Assembly: GCF_029392015.1 (NCBI RefSeq)
Contig: NZ_CP113925.1
Span: forward strand, 124,001-188,000
Source: Bifidobacterium sp. ESL0728
GTDB taxonomy: Bacteria; Actinomycetota; Actinomycetes; Actinomycetales; Bifidobacteriaceae
DNA length: 64,000 nt
Direction: 5' to 3'
A program made the translations under genes and the position numbers. The number at the start of each line of letters is the position of its first letter. Position 1 is the stretch's first letter. This document shows positions 3,226 through 44,759 of the stretch, piece by piece. The notes under the pieces are model-generated. The model had not been told where the DNA came from, did no database searches, and saw nothing but the letters and a program-made list of their open reading frames with translations.

Positions 3226-3500
3226 ACGGTCATTTGAGAATGCTGACGGTCACCTGGCTACGATGATGACGGTCATTTCACACAGTCATATAACCGTGTG
3301 AATCTGACTGTGTGGTCGTAATGTTACTGTGTGAATGTGCTCAGGGTAGATTGGCAGTGATCGTCAAGTTCTGAAAGCCTTGCAAAGTAGGTATGTCCGA
3401 AACGGCTTTGTTGATTGGCGAAGTCGTGTTCGGCGGTATTTTAGCGTTCACGCGGTCAACGTCACGGTCAAATGACTGTGTGAATGCGACCGGTTGAATG
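3226..3500. repeat. Cluster of repeated words CACACAGTCA / TGACTGTGTG
   Basis: This gap (3066-3734) holds no convincing gene. Variants of ACGGTCA occur at about 3226, 3245, 3269 and 3469. CACACAGTCA (3279-3288) and its exact reverse complement TGACTGTGTG (3305-3314) form a 10-bp stem with a 16-base loop. A further copy, ACTGTGTGAAT, lies near 3328 and TGACTGTGTGAAT near 3474. The words recur in both orientations, as in other gaps of this window. Confidence 0.6.
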
Positions 3501-3734
3501 CGATTGTGCGAATATGGCTAACGAACGAGGCCAGAACCGGAATACTAAGGTCTTACAAACTCTTCACTTCCGCTTTCTTGAATATGCCAGATAATTATCC
3601 ATCGTATGATAAAATATTCAAGCTTTCTGTTTTGTGCAATTAGAAAGAACTGTTGTACGGCAATAAAGTCCATCACGCGATAAGAGATTTATAGAAATCA
3701 CGCAATGAGGCGAGAAAAAGAAAGGTATTCAATA

Positions 3735-27997: not shown

Positions 27998-28179
27998 CGG
28001 GTCGTCGAGCCCTCTGAATCGCAGGCCGGATCTTTCTTTTACATTCGGTTTCACACGCGAGCCTGCTGAAATGCGGGAGATGGTTCATTGAGTAGCTGCC
28101 GGTAAGTGTGTTAAGCATAAGCATGCAGGCCGAACCGTTTATGTTTACCGGCTCTGGTTCTGACTTGTTTGGGCATTGT

Positions 28180-28216
28180 AAAAGGCCGGTCGCTGTTGGA
28201 AGGCGACCGGCCTTTT
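28180..28216. terminator. Bidirectional terminator between sortase and LRR genes
   Basis: A perfect 14-bp stem (28180-28193 with 28203-28216), loop TGTTGGAAG, with A-run before and T-run after, so it works on both strands for the converging genes. Confidence 0.85.
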
Positions 28217-28254
28217 ACTTATTTCAGGGTAGGAGAGAAACCCTGGTGCTTGGC

Positions 28255-38515: not shown

Positions 38516-38552
38516 TTCGCTGACATTTCAGCGTTTAGCGTCGTTTAAAAAG

Positions 38553-38580
38553 GGCCCGCACATTCGTGTGCGGGTCTTTT
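38553..38580 (+). terminator. Terminator of the UgpC-type gene
   Basis: A 10-bp stem (GGCCCGCACA, 38553-38562, with TGTGCGGGTC, 38567-38576; one G-U pair), loop TTCG and then a T-run. Confidence 0.9.
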
Positions 38581-38653
38581 TGCGTTTCGGCGCAATCGCA
38601 ATCGCAGTGCCGAAATTGCGTTTGCGACGCAAATGGCGCCTATAGCGTCCCAT

Positions 38654-38857
38654 GTGCAATGTGGGGTTGCGGATGTGTCGCAATGGGTGTCGGTTGCGTC
38701 GTGTGTGCAAGGTGGGGTTGCGGATGTGTCGCAATGGGTGTCGGTTGCGTCGTGTGTGCAATGTGGGGTTGCGGATGTGTCGCTGGTGGTGTCGGTTGCG
38801 TCGTGTGTGCAAGGTGGGGTTGCGGATGTGTTGCAATGGGCCTCAGTTGCGTCGTAT
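38654..38857. repeat. Four tandem copies of a 51-bp minisatellite
   Basis: Units start at 38654, 38705, 38756 and 38807 with GTGCAATGTGG or GTGCAAGGTGG and are almost identical; the last one diverges. Each contains TTGCG-N7-CGCAA. Several frames are open across it only because 51 is a multiple of three. Confidence 0.9.
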
Positions 38858-38967
38858 CTGCAATTGTCGGTTTGTGTTGCGGGCGGGGCTAGCTACTGTG
38901 AATAAGTGATGTGTGATTGGGTTTGCGTCGCTGATGGTGTTTATGGTGTCGTATGTGCAATGTGGGG

Positions 38968-39011
38968 TTGCGTTTGCGACGGGTTTGGCTGCTGTGGCGT
39001 CGCAAACGCAA
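38968..39011. repeat. 14-bp hairpin and outer 15-bp inverted repeats around the minisatellite
   Basis: TTGCGTTTGCGACG (38968-38981) and CGTCGCAAACGCAA (38998-39011) form a perfect stem with a 16-base loop. The same word with one more base lies at 38616-38630, so 38616-39011 is bounded by 15-bp inverted repeats. Confidence 0.75.
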
Positions 39012-39126
39012 TATGACGGCACGCGGGTGTGCCTATCTGCTACCGGTCCGCAACGATGCTGGACTATCCTACGCGGGCGGTAGATTGAGAGGTATGAAAA
39101 TAAGTGGTGGGATGCAAGGAATGCAA

Positions 39127-41046
39127 ATGGACCCCAGGGCGCTGAAGGCGACGTCCGTGACGGCCGCCGAGGCCGGCGATGAAGATGTCGCCGAACCCCA
39201 CGCGCTGCAGATCACTGCCGCGAGCTCGAACCCGAAGATGTTCACCCTGCCATGGGAAAAGCCGCTGGCGACATGGCCCAAGGAGCTTCTTGCGAATCTG
39301 CCGCGAGGCATCTCCCGGCACGTCGTGCGTTTCGTACACGTCGGCGACGAGATCTACGCGATGAAGGAAATCACCAGTCGCGTGGCAGCGCACGAATACG
39401 AGCTGTTGCGGCGTCTGCAGAAGCTGGAACTGCCCACCGTCACGCCGATTGCCGTGGTCACCGGCCGGCATACCCGCGAGGGCGAGCCGCTGGAATCGAT
39501 TCTGGTGACCAAGCAGCTCAAGTTCTCGCTGCCGTATCGTGCGCTGTTCGCCGGAAATCTCCGGCCCGATACCGCCGACCGTTTGATCGACGCGCTCGCC
39601 GTCTTGATGGTCCGTCTGCACCTTTCCGGTTTCTATTGGGGCGACGTCTCGCTTTCCAATGTGCTCTTCCTGCGCGACGCCGACGCGTTTTCGGCTTTCC
39701 TGGTTGACGCGGAAACCGGCGCGCTTTATACAACGCTTACCGAGGGCCAGCGCAATTATGACATGGACCTGGCGCGCACCAATATCATCGGCGAGCTCAT
39801 GGATCTGAGCTCCGGCAAGCTGCTGCCCGATGAGGTGGACGAGGTCGAGGTCGGCGACCGGTTGATCGAGCGCTACGACTCGCTGTGGGGTGCGCTGACC
39901 GATCAGGAGGACTTCGGCCCCGACGAGATGTGGAAGATCGAGAAGCGCGTCAACAAGCTCAACGACTTGGGCTTCGACGTCGACGAGCTTGAGGTCAAAA
40001 CCGTCGACGATGGCAAGCGCGTGCTGGTCCGTCCGCGCGTGGTCGATGCCGGTTATGCCTCCCGCAAGCTGCTGCGGCTCACGGGCCTCGACGTTCAGGA
40101 GAACCAGGCACGCCGGCTTTTGAACGATTTGGATGCCTACCGCGCCTCCACTTGGCGTGACGGCGAGGAGCTGGAAATCGTGGCGACCGACTGGATGCGC
40201 GAGGTCTTCGAGCCCGTCGTGCGCATGATCCCCAAGGAATACCGCTCCAAGATCGAGCCGGCGCAGTTCTTCCACGAGGTTTTGCAAAATCGTTGGTATA
40301 TGGCCGAAAAGGCCGGGCACGACGTGTCCACGGCCGTGGCCGCGAGCGATTACATCAAGCACAATCTGCCAAAGTACAACCTTGACTCCAAGGCGCTCGC
40401 CGAGATCAATGCGGACGCAGATTCCGGCGTGGTCGACGACAGCTCGACCTACGACCAGGCCGCAGAGGGTGCGGACGATACGGATAGCGAGGACGCTGCG
40501 GACACCGTGGGTTCCGACAACGATGATGTCGACAGCATCGGGCGTGGCGATTACAGCGCGCTTGGCGACGGTCTGGGCAATCTAGGCGCAACGCAAACCA
40601 CCGGCGAGGATTTCAATAACCTAGATACCGATTCGGACGTGTCGGAAGACATCTGGCCGACTCAGCCCGACCCGGCCACGGCTGCTGCGCGTAATGCAAA
40701 TAGCGGGCCCATGACGGACGCCGGCTCAGAAACCGGCCACGCAAAGAAAAGCGCCGGCGGTGGGAATGGTGCTGGTGCCAAAGTTTCCGACGCCGCTGGC
40801 GCCGACGTTTCTGGTGTCGCTGGGGATGACGTTTCCGACGCTGACGTTTCCGGCGCCGCTGGGGATGGTGCTGGTGCTGCTCTGAATGATGCGAATGCCA
40901 ATGCTTCTGACGCTTCTGACGCTGGCGTTTCTGATGCCACTGGGGATGGTGTTGGCGTCGACGCTTCTGATATCGGCGATTCCGACGATGACGACGATTA
41001 TGATCCGGCCGAATACGACCAGGACGCCGCCGTCTGGAGCCACTGA
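39127..41046 (+). CDS. DUF4032 protein with kinase-like N-terminal fold
   Basis: About 639 residues. The N-terminal 220 residues look like the LPS-kinase/WaaP-type fold (FVHVGDEIYAMKEIT with a Lys, YWGDVSLSNVLF resembling a catalytic loop, FLVDAETG resembling DFG). The middle region (about 225-430) matches the DUF4032 family known from actinobacteria. The last 200 residues are low-complexity Asp/Ala/Ser/Gly, with repeated DVSGAAGD-like pieces. ATG 39127 is preferred because AAGGA (39116-39120) precedes it by six bases; ATG 39094 and a longer frame to 38953 are alternatives, and the longer one runs into the repeat region. Substrate of the kinase-like domain is unknown. Confidence 0.8.
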   Translation: MDPRALKATSVTAAEAGDEDVAEPHALQITAASSNPKMFTLPWEKPLATWPKELLANLPRGISRHVVRFVHVGDEIYAMKEITSRVAAHEYELLRRLQKLELPTVTPIAVVTGRHTREGEPLESILVTKQLKFSLPYRALFAGNLRPDTADRLIDALAVLMVRLHLSGFYWGDVSLSNVLFLRDADAFSAFLVDAETGALYTTLTEGQRNYDMDLARTNIIGELMDLSSGKLLPDEVDEVEVGDRLIERYDSLWGALTDQEDFGPDEMWKIEKRVNKLNDLGFDVDELEVKTVDDGKRVLVRPRVVDAGYASRKLLRLTGLDVQENQARRLLNDLDAYRASTWRDGEELEIVATDWMREVFEPVVRMIPKEYRSKIEPAQFFHEVLQNRWYMAEKAGHDVSTAVAASDYIKHNLPKYNLDSKALAEINADADSGVVDDSSTYDQAAEGADDTDSEDAADTVGSDNDDVDSIGRGDYSALGDGLGNLGATQTTGEDFNNLDTDSDVSEDIWPTQPDPATAAARNANSGPMTDAGSETGHAKKSAGGGNGAGAKVSDAAGADVSGVAGDDVSDADVSGAAGDGAGAALNDANANASDASDAGVSDATGDGVGVDASDIGDSDDDDDYDPAEYDQDAAVWSH

Positions 41047-41080
41047 GCGATCCCGAAGGTCCGAAGCTCGAGATTTCTGC

Positions 41081-41204
41081 GCTAACTGTGTTTTTTTACT
41101 TGCGATAAGAGGGTTACTAAGTAAAAAGACACATTTGAGCACGCTAATTGTGTCTTTTTACTTAGTCGGTACGAGCAAGCAAGTAAAAAGACACAAATAC
41201 GAAG
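41081..41204. repeat. Two tandem 62-bp units with GTAAAAAGACACA palindromes
   Basis: Units 41081-41142 and 41143-41204. Each has TGTGT(C/T)TTTTTAC near its start and GTAAAAAGACACA near its end with a variable middle. ACTAAGTAAAAAGACACA (41116-41133) and its exact complement (41149-41166) make an 18-bp stem with a 15-base loop across the unit border. An outer 17-bp pair with one mismatch encloses it (41087-41103 and 41179-41195). The hairpin may end the DUF4032 transcript. No gene was found in 41047-41607. Confidence 0.85.
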
Positions 41205-41528
41205 TGGTGGGCAGGCATAAACGTGGACTTGAACTGAATCCGAGAGCCTGCGAACCCTTTATCCACCGTACGGCTGCATTCGGTATTGCCATGTGAAAGG
41301 CCAAATCTTCCAATCCGGATTTTACCTTTCGGGCTTGCGGCCTTTAGATCTGAGGCTATTGCCGAAATACGCGTCCGGAATCAGCCCTAGGCATTGAAAG
41401 AGTAGCGGAAGAAGGGGTCGAATCTTTCTGACCCAATCTTAAACAGCTTTGATACCATATGGCAGAACGTTTTAAAGCTGAGTTCGATGCATGTCTTAGC
41501 CGATAGCCCAAAATCTGGGTTCGAAATT

Positions 41529-41578
41529 TGCAAAAATAAACCCGAACCACATCTCGTGAATGGGGATGAGATTCGGGC
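41529..41578 (-). terminator. Intrinsic terminator of rlmB
   Basis: On the minus strand CCCGAATCTC pairs with GAGA and TTCGGG (41542-41578, with a bulge), followed by TTTATTTTTGC. It lies 30 bases after the stop. Confidence 0.7.
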
Positions 41579-41607
41579 GTAAGCGGATAAGCGTGTTGTC
41601 GCCGGTT

Positions 41608-42612
41608 TTATTTGCTGCTGTCGGCCTGTTCCCCGGCCTTGCTGCGGGCGCGGGAGACGGCGTAGAGGCTGATGCCCGCCGCCACGGAGGCGTTGAGCGA
41701 CTCGACTTCGCTGGAAATCGGAATGCCGGCGATGGAATCGCAAGCCTCGCGCACCAGGCGGCTCAGGCCCTTGCCTTCCGAGCCCAGCACGACCACCAGC
41801 GGGTCGGTCTCGAAGCCGCTTTCGCCGACAATCGCGTTGCCGCCACCGTCAAGTCCGACCACGTAATAGCCGCGTTCCTTCATCGCCTCGATGGCTTTGG
41901 TCAGATTGACCACGCGGGCCACGGGCAGGTGAGCGGCCGCGCCGGCCGAGACCTTCCAGGCTGCGGCGTTGACTGAGGCCGAACGTCGTTCCGGAAGAAT
42001 GACGCCGTTGGCGCCGAATGCCGCCGCCGAACGGATGACAGCGCCGAGGTTCTGCGGGTCGGTGACGCCATCCAGTGCGATAAAGAGCGGGCGGGCATTG
42101 ATGCGGGCGCTTTGCGAATCGGCCTCTTCCATGGCGTGCGATTTCTTATCCGCGCGATCGGCGAGCTCCGCCAGTGTGTGATACTGGTAAGGCTGCACCT
42201 TCAGAATGATGCCCTGATGGTTGCGCGAGTGCGCAATGCGGTCCATCTCCAGCCGGTCGGCCTCAAGCAGGTTCAGCCCTTGCATACCGGCGAGCTTCAC
42301 GATTTCGCGGGTGCGATCGTCGTGCTCGATGCGATTGGCGATATAAAGCTGCGTGCTCGGCACCCCAACGCGCAGCGCCTCAAGCACCGCGTTGCGGCCG
42401 ACCACCAGATCGTCGGATTCGGAGGTGTACCTTGCCGCGCGCCGACGTGCCGCCAGCCGCGGATCGGCGAAACGGCGCTTCTCGTTCTGCTTCTTCGCGC
42501 GATACGCTTTGTGATACACACGATCCTCGGCCTTGGGCGTCGGCCCGCGGCCTTTCAACGCGTTGCGATGTTTTCCGCCCGAACCTTTGACCGGGCCCTT
42601 CTTGTTAGTCAT
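41608..42612 (-). CDS. rlmB: 23S rRNA (guanosine-2'-O-)-methyltransferase RlmB
   Basis: A 334-residue SpoU/TrmH-family enzyme that methylates the 2'-OH of a guanosine in 23S rRNA with SAM. It has a basic N-terminal extension (about 65 residues), a substrate-binding domain (VVGRNAVLEAL) and the SPOUT domain. Motifs in the latter: LDGVTDPQNLGAVIRSA, VVLGSEGKGLSRLV and IPISSEVESLNASVAAGISLYA, forming the trefoil knot. The bases around the start lie about 80 bases from the 62-bp repeat cluster. The family is clear; the exact target site is by family resemblance. Confidence 0.93.
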   Translation of the reverse strand: MTNKKGPVKGSGGKHRNALKGRGPTPKAEDRVYHKAYRAKKQNEKRRFADPRLAARRRAARYTSESDDLVVGRNAVLEALRVGVPSTQLYIANRIEHDDRTREIVKLAGMQGLNLLEADRLEMDRIAHSRNHQGIILKVQPYQYHTLAELADRADKKSHAMEEADSQSARINARPLFIALDGVTDPQNLGAVIRSAAAFGANGVILPERRSASVNAAAWKVSAGAAAHLPVARVVNLTKAIEAMKERGYYVVGLDGGGNAIVGESGFETDPLVVVLGSEGKGLSRLVREACDSIAGIPISSEVESLNASVAAGISLYAVSRARSKAGEQADSSK

Positions 42613-42694
42613 GCCCCAATTGTCCCAGCACCCCGCGCCAACCTTGCCAGCAGTCCGCGCGTGTCAGCTCAGCTGCTGTCCCTCTTCTATCCGC

Positions 42695-42901
42695 AAAAGG
42701 TGCTTTTCTCCTCAGTAAAAGCGCCAATCAGTGCGAAAAGCACTAAAAATGCCCCGAAAAGGTGCTTTTCTCCTCGGTAAAAGCGCCAATCAGTGCGAAA
42801 AGCACCAAAAATGCCCTGAAAAGGTGCTTTTCGCCTCGACAAGAGCTGGTTCCAGTGAGAAAAGCACCATTATGGGTCGATTTTGGTGCTTTTCTCACTG
42901 G
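42695..42901. repeat. Three tandem 62-bp units with GGTGCTTTTC palindromes plus a terminal hairpin
   Basis: Units start at 42695, 42757 and 42819 (the last is 61 long). Each has GGTGCTTTTC near its start and GAAAAGCAC about 40 bases in. A fourth GGTGCTTTTC is at 42885, again 62 from the previous one. CCAGTGAGAAAAGCACC (42852-42868) and its exact complement (42885-42901) form a 17-bp stem with a 16-base loop. The array lies between dcd (its end at 42966) and rlmB (start 42612), so the last hairpin may end the dcd transcript. Confidence 0.9.
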
Positions 42902-42965
42902 CTTGACGTGACGGCGATAGCAAAGCAAGCGATGGCGGGAACGGCGAGCATTGCCGCGCCCGCTT

Positions 42966-43547
42966 TCAGTCCTTGATCTCGGCCTTGTAGAAGTTGACGT
43001 AGGAACGCGACGGGGTGGGGCCGCGCTGGCCCTGATAGTGCGAGCCGACGCCGGTCGAACCGTAGGGGTGCGCGGCGGGGGAGCTGAGCTCGAAGAAGCA
43101 CATCTGTCCGATTTTCATGCCCGGCCAGAGTTTCACCGGCAGCGTGCTGACGTTGGAAAGTTCCAGCGTGATGTGCCCCTCAAAGCCAGGGTCGATGAAA
43201 CCGGCGGTGGAGTGCGTCAGAATGCCGAGCCGCCCGAGCGAGCTCTTGCCCTCAAGCCGCGCCGCGATGGTGCCGTCGAGCTTGACGTACTCCCAAGTGG
43301 AGGCCAGTGCGAACTCGCCGGGGTGCATGATCCACGGCTCGTCCGGCCCGACCTCGAACTGCTCGGTCAGGTCGCCTTGGTTCTCTGCCGGATCGACGTA
43401 GGTATAGGCATGGTTGTTGAAAAGCCTGAAATACCGGTCGAGCCGCACATCGATGGAGGCGGGCTGCACCATCTCGGGCGTCCACGGATCCAGCGAGATA
43501 TGGCCGTCGGCCTGGGCGGCGAGGATGTCACGATCTGACAGCAGCAT
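42966..43547 (-). CDS. dcd: dCTP deaminase
   Basis: A 193-residue enzyme of the dCTP deaminase/dUTPase family supplying dUMP or dUTP for thymidylate synthesis. Key segments: [11 protein letters not shown] (phosphate binding), [22 protein letters not shown] (with the catalytic Glu) and a C-terminal [15 protein letters not shown] that closes on the nucleotide. Length and motifs match the family well. In many actinobacteria the enzyme is bifunctional (deaminase plus pyrophosphatase); this cannot be settled by eye here. Confidence 0.95.
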
Positions 43548-44133
43548 ACGTTCCTCCAGATTGGGTTATGTGCCCAACGGTCGATCAGGCAGAGCCGCGG
43601 AAATCAGCGATAGTGCCTGCCGACGTTAGATTATTTCCTGCTTTCAAGTGTAGACGTTACCGGCGTCGAAGTTGGCGGGAGATCAACGGCCGTTCCATGA
43701 AGGCGCTCGGCGGGCTCAGTCTCGCTCATACCTCGCTATCGAAACGGACAGGATACAATCAAGGGAAACAACAGTGTTGCGCTTCTGGCTTGAACTCGGG
43801 TGGGGGTTGGACATAGCTGTTGTGTGGGCGGGACATTCGCGGGATGCTCGCTTTAATCCCGTTCGATATCGGTTTTGGTTATGCTGAGAACTTGTGTCGG
43901 CCAGTTGTATTTGACACTTGTTTTTGCCGGATAACATGTATTCGGCCTTGATTCGATTCGCGGCGTTTGCCGTTCAGTGTTTGAGCTCTGGAGTTTGGTG
44001 TTTGTGTTTGATGTCTGGCGCTTGGTTTGGTGCTTGGCTTTGATCGTTGAGGTGTGCGATGCCTTTGTGTTGGTGCTTTTGCTGCTGTGTCACGAAAGTT
44101 TTACACTGACCACGACCTGTTCGGAGGTTTCGT

Positions 44134-44202
44134 ATGCTCGTTCGTCCGAAATTCCGCAGGAAAACCGAAAAAAATGGTCAAAAAACCAAAATTTTCAGGT
44201 AA
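44134..44202 (+). CDS. Possible 22-residue basic peptide
   Basis: ATG 44134 has a strong GGAGG (44123-44127) six bases upstream and reads 22 codons rich in Lys and Arg (MLVRPKFRRKTEKNG and on) to TAA. TTTTCAGGTAA is repeated around the stop. A terminator lies downstream at 44331. It could be a leader peptide, a small protein or chance. The rest of 43548-44759 holds no gene that can be supported. TTGACA at 43911-43916 is a possible -35 box, with no good -10 partner at normal spacing. Confidence 0.3.
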   Translation: MLVRPKFRRKTEKNGQKTKIFR

Positions 44203-44330
44203 TTTTCAGGTAATCCGATTCTTGCGTCAAGGATTGTGGAGTTATATAAGAGTTGTCAGCAAGAGCTGGCCGGTGATCTTGAGGTTTGGATTTTCCGATA
44301 ATTGAACCCTTTCTTCTTCTCTCTTCTCTT

Positions 44331-44364
44331 CCCCGGTGCGTTCTAGCACCGGGGTTTCTCTTTT
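44331..44364 (+). terminator. Terminator in the gap before the 44760 gene
   Basis: CCCCGGTGC (44331-44339), loop GTTCTA and GCACCGGGG (44346-44354), followed by TTTCTCTTTT. No annotated gene ends close upstream, so it points to a transcript in 43900-44330, such as the small ORF or a non-coding RNA. Confidence 0.7.
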
Positions 44365-44759
44365 CCGCGGGCTTTGCAGGTCTCGACGCGGGTTGCCGCG
44401 TGTGCGGTATGGCGGAAGCGGGATTATTGGGGGTTATAGGCCAATAATCCCGGAAACGGGCAATGTTATGCTACGCAAAAAATTTGCATTCAGACATGTA
44501 ACTCGACATTTAACCCACGCATAATAAATACATTTGGCGTAAGTTGTGCAGTGTAAGTCGTGCGGCGTGCAGTGTGTGGCGTGCAGCGTGCGGCGCGCAA
44601 TGTGACCGTGTCGCGTACGCTATCCGGCATATCGCGTTCGCGCGAGGTAAACTAAAACAAACAGTTCGTTTCGCAGACGGATGACGCCATAAATCCGTTG
44701 TATGGAATCGTGAGTTTATATCACGGATACGGATTCGGGCAGACGGGACAAACGAGGAT

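Follow-up and report, generated by a model that had tools for sequence, protein, structure and literature searches.

We examined a window of 64,000 nucleotides (the whole stretch of DNA that was analysed) from Bifidobacterium sp. ESL0728, in which two clusters of short inverted repeats lie on either side of rlmB. The genes and features of this region are listed below, with coordinates counted from the first letter of the window.

38953 to 41046, plus strand: DUF4032 / Kdo-kinase-like gene (PF13224, PF06293)
41080 to 41200, no strand: array 1, arm family B (GTGTCTTTTTACTT / AAGTAAAAAGACAC), dyads at 41110, 41141 and 41172, 31.0 bp spacing
41608 to 42612, minus strand: rlmB, 23S rRNA 2'-O-methyltransferase (TIGR00186)
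42695 to 42901, no strand: array 2, arm family A, alternating arms, dyads every 31.0 bp
42699 to 42708, plus strand: forward arm F1 of array 2, GGTGCTTTTC
42735 to 42744, minus strand: inverted arm R1 of array 2, GAAAAGCACT, one mismatch against the arm
42761 to 42770, plus strand: forward arm F2 of array 2
42797 to 42806, minus strand: inverted arm R2 of array 2, GAAAAGCACC
42823 to 42832, plus strand: forward arm F3 of array 2
42859 to 42868, minus strand: inverted arm R3 of array 2
42885 to 42894, plus strand: forward arm F4 of array 2
42852 to 42901, no strand: terminal hairpin, perfect arms of 18 bp (42852-42869 / 42884-42901) with 14 nt between them
42966 to 43547, minus strand: dcd, dCTP deaminase (TIGR02274)

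The first arm of array 2 lies 87 bp from the start of rlmB, and its last arm 71 bp from the dcd stop. Array 1 occupies the convergent gap between the DUF4032 / Kdo-kinase-like gene and rlmB, and has the same 62-bp period with different arms. An earlier note on this DNA had described four GGTGCTTTTC arms in 62-bp steps with opposite-strand arms between them, and this is what we measured: the former start at 42699, 42761, 42823 and 42885 (spacings of 62, 62 and 62 bp), the latter, GAAAAGCAC(C/T), at 42735, 42797 and 42859, and the dyad axes at 42721.5, 42752.5, 42783.5, 42814.5, 42845.5 and 42876.5 are 31.0 bp apart. The note was also right that clusters representing two versions of one 62-bp palindromic unit stand on both sides of rlmB, and many more versions exist than its reader could see. 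The perfect hairpin that it placed at the end of array 2 is present, with arms of 18 bp rather than the 17 bp given and a 14-nt loop. The deviating middle that it saw in unit 3 is reflected in an identity to unit 1 of 66%, compared with 95% for unit 2; since whole 62-bp units align at these values, with no unrelated spacers, we dropped a CRISPR array as an explanation. Array 2 is a real feature, and assembly error behind it is unlikely because the same architecture recurs at about 20 loci of a one-contig genome and in the genomes of other species. Two further repeats were seen in the window, namely a 102-bp tandem repeat at 38645-38864, made up of two halves of 51 bp and matching at 88-89%, directly upstream of the DUF4032 gene, and nested inverted repeats CACACAGT/ACTGTGTG at 3277-3335, upstream of a gene at 3705, which resemble the operator of a regulator.

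When the genome of this strain (G000; 2.59 Mb, one contig) was searched with array 2, the matches grouped into 20 loci, array 2 among them; the 10-mer arm was counted 63 times, whereas the reversed control sequence gave a count of 10. Intact family A arms alternate as R-16-F and F-26-R with a 62-bp period. The tie to rlmB implied by the earlier note is not specific, and we rejected an rlmB-specific function because about 20 loci carry family A arms, which adjoin other genes there. Across 112 genomes of the genus, a core pattern of F-N25..27-R had matches in nine, G000 included, and all nine fall in the group with an RlmB at least 91% identical to that of the window. Matches to this core with family E flanks occur in G004 and G112, and partly in G111 and G002, because families A and E share the core; a family D pattern was found in 5 of the 112 genomes, within that same RlmB group. 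A scan of a species-genome collection with the N26 pattern, from which records of our own genome were possibly excluded, returned 21 matching stretches. Chains of dyads 31 bp apart were present in five of these, all from Bifidobacterium: four from MAG B-bin1, whose fifth stretch failed the rule and which, its array being identical, is very probably G104, and one from strain ESL0784, which we take to be of bee origin. The 15 other stretches had no 31-bp dyad chain; among them are one of Bifidobacterium pluvialisilvae and one of Clostridiales, the latter matched twice within a tandem repeat of unrelated kind. Judged from this sequence distribution, the element family would be special to one Bifidobacterium clade, and its elements look confined there. 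A repeat of other appearance was met in G000 at L119 5146-5241 (G000:C1 about 2195146), where copies of TGTTATGTTATTTATAAATAACATAA form A+T-rich perfect palindromes with dyads 61.5 bp apart.

We also ran a motif-free dyad scan on blocks of 20 kb, covering 1.8 Mb from eight genomes of the group and spacings of 10-80 bp. Consecutive spacings rounding to 30-32 bp made up 36 of 65, and 14 of 36 when blocks chosen for a known match were excluded. An outgroup control (G015, G024 and G048; 0.6 Mb) gave 0 of 9 spacings in this range, a shuffled control yielded two spacings in all with neither at 30-32 bp, and an earlier dyad scan with other settings had the same outcome. The scan overlooks degenerate arrays, because no array was found under the strict dyad rule in the 200 kb of G002, a known array carrier. 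The de novo arrays include arms as unlike as GAAAAGCACC, CAGAGATAATCAC, TCTAAGCCAATA and GCTTGTTGACGCG, and we recognized 13 arm families (A to M, labels assigned in the present analysis) to which dyads about 31 bp apart are common; families A, D, E, F, L and M are partly related and have an AAAA-x-CA-like core in common. In family D the loop was 20 nt long in all 20 matches, where 18-22 nt were allowed, and the loop sequences differ. The family A linker (n = 72, with 25-27 nt allowed) was 26 nt long in 54 cases, 25 in 16 and 27 in two.

The gap between rlmB and dcd in related species revealed extensive turnover of arm sequence. Family A is carried there by G000, G104, G106, G108 and G109, families C with D by G105, G107 and G112, family E by G004 and G111, family F by G110 and a D-like hairpin by G002, and the gaps of G015 and G057 have no array. 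Replacement of one family by another was found also beside rpsO, between smc and folC, where G109 has a hybrid with E-type and A-type flanks on its arms, and beside leuS. Sequences were read by eye at these four loci in 13 relatives, the automatic 'A-like' label being crude (it tags some C and F arrays as A-like). Among the resulting 52 site-species there were 13 with family A, 2 with an A/E mixture, 16 with a hairpin or array of some other family that passed the detection rule, 5 with a D-like hairpin falling short of it, 1 with another hairpin and 15 with none; the loci were chosen for their array in G000 and the related species are not independent, so no probability is drawn from these counts. 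Whole units come and go as well. An alignment of rlmB-dcd between the sister species G105 and G107 has one gap of 183 nt (3 x 61 bp units) and two gaps of 1 nt, with 91% identity outside the gaps, and the rpsO gap measures 35-41 bp in G015, G106 and G110 compared with 165-291 bp in nine species with an array or hairpin, G000 included. Family replacement together with the unit-sized gap indicates that arms are rewritten in concert and units gained and lost with the layout mostly kept. Two other repeats were noted at these sites: in the smc-folC gap of G105 (L226), where G000 has family A, a hairpin around TAAAGTGGTCATGT lies off the 31-bp rule, and in the rlmB-dcd gap of G110 (L074) about eleven near-identical 11-nt units, GGTTGGAAAGC, form an unrelated minisatellite beside the family F array.

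Spacing at the four orthologous loci was scored with a looser rule in 14 genomes. The earlier note would have counted loss of the period in close relatives against its reading, and such loss was found in part: relatives swap the arm sequence or are without an array, and among 122 consecutive spacings between the dyads that remain, 75 measure 30-31.5 bp and eight measure 25.5 bp (family E, G004 and G111). An equal 31-bp rule is therefore not valid for every family. Family E arrays at rlmB-dcd in G004 and G111 have 25.5-bp dyads throughout (a 51-bp period), and those at rpsO in the same two genomes have dyads at 30.5 and then 25.5 bp. Alternating palindromes with 25.5-bp dyads were noted at the following places.

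L070 1324-1434, G004: family E, rlmB-dcd
L071 2615-2696, G111: family E, rlmB-dcd
L253 5987-6097, G107: other arm, AAAGTGCGTTAT / AAAACGCACTTT

Because 51 bp is one helical turn below 61-62 bp, a whole-turn rule between direct repeats survives, and the 51-bp variants of family E and others would be a five-turn form of the six-turn rule of 61-62 bp. A/T phasing near 10.2 bp is weak in the 51-bp family E arrays, and in G004 another of the periods tried was stronger. Three 25.5-bp chains of an outgroup genome (L161, G024) consist of short-loop palindromes in pairs and show little A/T phasing at 10.2 bp.

Averaged over families, the A/T content is highest at distances of 4-7 and 14-15 bp from the dyads and lowest at 0-3 and about 9-13 bp. 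A dihedral period of 31 bp pushes any signal into harmonics of 31, and we therefore compared these harmonics with one another. The third (10.33 bp) has a negative sign in every one of the 13 families, and in ten of them it exceeds the other five harmonics, the sixth being larger in H and K and the first tying in B; as the families are partly related, the agreement in sign does not amount to 13 independent trials. A stronger test of phasing is provided by loops and linkers of free sequence, and all of these were phased: the observed value was reached in 0 of 2000 permutations for 78 distinct family A loops, in 0 of 2000 for 52 family A linkers and in 0 of 5000 for the D loops (n = 20). At the tract positions A and T are interchangeable. 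With Bolshoy-type wedge values, array 2 is predicted to bend by 103 or 119 degrees per 93 bp (two parameter sets), about the 99.9th percentile of a 400-kb genome sample. The 95th percentile is exceeded by 15 of 26 arrays with one parameter set and 21 of 26 with the other; under the first set ordinary values were obtained for C (percentiles 52 and 76), for one array each of D (56) and G (71), and for H (72).

With respect to genes, 28 of the 29 arrays of three or more dyads that were found de novo are intergenic and one lies inside a predicted ORF; the 29 are 31 chains minus two with a spacing under 29.5 bp, and 14 of them are in blocks chosen for a known match. The intergenic arrays comprise 18 in co-directional, 10 in convergent and none in divergent gaps, where the background of gaps of 100-900 bp has 482, 119 and 113, respectively. 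If placement tracked gap counts, finding none of 28 in divergent gaps would have a probability of about 0.008, a value to be read in the light of related species not being independent. One array (L244 2375) lies 1347 bp past the upstream stop, and a gene was possibly missed there. Scoring by hand of 21 loci of G000 (20 of family A, one of family B) gave 6 convergent, 14 co-directional, 1 single-flank and no divergent sites; L047 and L063 were scored co-directional through a tRNA-Thr and a minus-strand ORF, and L053 has one flanking gene only, with its 3' end toward the array. By eye, about eight arrays are oriented one way relative to gene direction, three the opposite way and one is mixed.

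The closest known kind is the BIME-2/REP repeat of Escherichia coli. The arrays share with BIME-2 the oppositely oriented tandem units, extragenic position and variable length described in PMC2817692, and the two flanking flavours of BIME-2 have a counterpart in family A arms; alternately oriented arms in tandem between genes, which define a BIME, are what we found. REPs, as characterized in PMC8266576, are palindromes of 20-50 nt after a tetranucleotide, mostly GTAG, whereas single family A arms (CAGTGnGAAAAGCACC or CTGAGGAGAAAAGCACC) are neither palindromic nor GTAG-headed. For BIMEs of the E. coli type, mobility through RAYTs has been proposed and gyrase binding found (PMC2817692); unlike them, the present arrays occur in a genome without a RAYT and have one spacing common to many arm sequences. 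Lacking both a GTAG-headed palindromic arm and a RAYT, the arrays are filed as BIME-like but outside the RAYT-linked REP/BIME class. Among the matches listed by a limited search, which took in few subscription journals, there was no description of such repeats in Bifidobacterium or of like phased repeats.

The reading we lean toward, tentatively and at somewhat less than an even chance, is that such a BIME-like bent palindromic array is a putative docking site for a DNA-wrapping protein, with gyrase as first candidate. Tandem, alternately inverted arms set the dyads mostly 31 bp, or three turns of the helix, apart, and A/T tracts that recur on one helical face at ~10.3 bp would produce a bent segment 3' of genes, on which the protein may dock, largely by indirect readout of the dyad-symmetric shape. 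Gyrase bound there could absorb positive supercoils that arise in front of transcription units and between them; HU, encoded by one gene copy in the genome (PF00216), would be the second candidate. Arm sequences could drift or be swapped with the layout kept, because shape would be recognised more than wording, and recombination or slippage between direct repeats may lengthen or shorten arrays by whole units. Gyrase is placed first because its E. coli motif is symmetric and phased and because the enzyme itself is enriched past highly transcribed operons and over-represented in BIME-2. According to PMC6379681, that motif spans 130 bp, is symmetric with phased ~10-bp G/C variation and has a period of 10.75 bp in its two flanks of 47 bp, which enclose a centre of 36 bp; gyrase is enriched downstream of highly transcribed operons; and its cleavage sites are over-represented in BIME-2, where the gyrase signal rises under blocked transcription. 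Our arrays resemble these strong sites in dyad symmetry, in helix-phased G/C-A/T variation and in their position downstream of genes. The E. coli sites, as described there, differ in having no inverted arms of set sequence and in not being a repeat family, and since 10.75 bp in flanks stands against a uniform period near 10.33 bp here, the fit to gyrase is qualitative. That gyrase is universal and the elements look confined to one clade counts against the wrapping-protein reading. The layout is well supported, its geometry and exceptions, the A/T phasing, the predicted curvature of most families, the 3' location, arm turnover and unit gain and loss all having been computed; we infer the partner and the spreading mechanism.

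Their strong folding raises the alternative that the arrays act as RNA. The plus strand of array 2 folds at -96.3 kcal/mol, compared with -55.8 (sd 4.8) for dinucleotide shuffles, none of 200 being as low, and terminators or 3'-end stabilising hairpins, doubled or tripled in tandem and active on both strands, would account for folding that is strong on either strand, for the position 3' of genes (the nearest stop codon is a median of about 46 bp off for the 28 de novo arrays) and for the A-tract and T-tract held by family A arms. The details of the hairpins fit this poorly, and we consider it improbable. Loops are long (14-16 nt in array 2, 20 in family D) and no U-tract directly follows the stem; ordinary short-loop hairpins coexist with the arrays, in 48 of 97 convergent gaps; and a consensus terminator scan of 40900-43600 gave one site, inside the array, against 2.7 in shuffles. 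The R-F hairpins of array 2 lack the short loop and the U-tract that, with a G+C-rich stem, mark an ordinary intrinsic terminator; we dropped this candidate, as we did a known RNA family, all three matches to Rfam 15 at E up to 1 in window positions 40500-44500 being below gathering scores. In 80 family A R-16-F hairpins, collected with a motif allowing at most one mismatch per arm, flanks and loops are without covariation: core-adjacent positions pair in 31 of 80, where 27.6 are expected from column make-up, and the flanks inside the loop are the reverse of complementary (AAAA..AAAA or TTTT..TTTT), as are the linker flanks in 52 F-26-R pairs. One F-26-R position does pair above expectation (51 of 52 against 47.2, 2 of 2000 shuffles), so the statement on covariation is valid for the whole hairpin and not for every column. 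G-U against A-C mismatches gave no clear strand bias, with 84 sense and 67 antisense when arms are counted repeatedly and L047 and L063 are excluded (102 and 87 with both added). The absent covariation and anti-complementary loop flanks speak against RNA folding as the selected property in family A, and RNA leaves dyad spacing, loop length and A/T phase unexplained. Within the group, long-loop hairpins as such were present in 17 of 97 gaps between convergent genes, 49 of 437 between co-directional and 3 of 94 between divergent ones; the corresponding counts for G015, G024 and G048 are 0 of 33, 9 of 145 and 2 of 41. At 28178-28218 and 38548-38581 the window has usual short-loop hairpins with A/T-flanked G+C stems, which are probably bidirectional terminators.

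REPINs are inverted arm pairs around a loop that are dispersed between genes and form a population inside a genome. The present elements are alike in all three respects, and unlike them in having no RAYT in the genome and in forming tandem arrays with helical spacing rather than doublets. The main rival to a docking site is accordingly that the arrays are REPIN-like selfish palindromes copied to intergenic sites by a trans-acting enzyme other than a RAYT, the geometry being that enzyme's requirement and each arm family having its own enzyme variant. We regard this as possible, if on the unlikely side. It would explain near-identical arms dispersed over about 20 loci, the coexistence of several families in one genome, orthologous sites that are filled in some species and empty in others (as in the rpsO gap lengths) and the tight family A core, which is in part a product of sampling, because the hairpins were gathered with a one-mismatch motif; REP/BIME families with cognate RAYTs act alike (PMC2817692). 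No PF01797 protein was found in G000, G002 or G004, the array-bearing genomes that this search covered, nor in G015; 5 of 14 control genomes match, as do 2 of 39 relatives searched (G017 and G038), and RAYT-driven REPs were dropped for want of PF01797 in G000. The flanking proteins at 21 loci, inspected by eye, include a single mobile-element-like one, a phage-type integrase beside the single hairpin L065. Searches of plasmid records (72,556) and phage records (50,697) gave no match at E 0.001, and a plasmid or phage origin was dropped. Filled and empty rpsO sites, compared by eye with a MITE or insertion sequence in mind, revealed no target-site duplication, though the flanks are so divergent as to be too unlike for one to be called. 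Enzymes that recognise hairpins are, moreover, not expected to give A/T phasing inside free loops. Dispersal is better accounted for by this selfish origin than by the gyrase model, and the two are compatible. A neutral minisatellite without function, in which a palindromic unit, once present, would have its arms homogenised and its copy number shifted through template switching and unequal crossing-over, has in its favour that unit number moves in whole steps (183 nt, 3 x 61, between G105 and G107) and that the 25.5-bp variants prove the spacing changeable; it leaves unexplained the similar spacing of other families, the phased A/T in free-sequence loops and the absence from divergent gaps, and we hold it to be very unlikely.

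REP and BIME repeats were described decades ago, and it is still debated whether they bind gyrase and lie 3' of genes by function or as a by-product. In the arrays described here the letters vary among families while spacing and helical A/T patches are mostly kept, which suggests that DNA shape rather than wording matters; the near-invariant core of family A, an invariance partly due to the way the hairpins were collected, suggests that there may be recognition of sequence as well. Returning to the docking-site reading, it is conceivable, if rather doubtful, that selection fixes mainly a mechanical layout of whole-turn direct repeats with dyads between them and A/T on one face, in other words a shape-coded docking array. 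If so, the arm 'word' could be rewritten freely, in step across an array, and arrays would be remade repeatedly at the same gene ends. A REP-like population without the usual RAYT in the genome implies that another copying enzyme or another route exists. Since sequence changes repeatedly among close relatives with spacing and phase mostly constant, shape and sequence have been separated by evolution, and orthologous loci with family A, C, D, E, F or no array form a natural series that permits their direct comparison.
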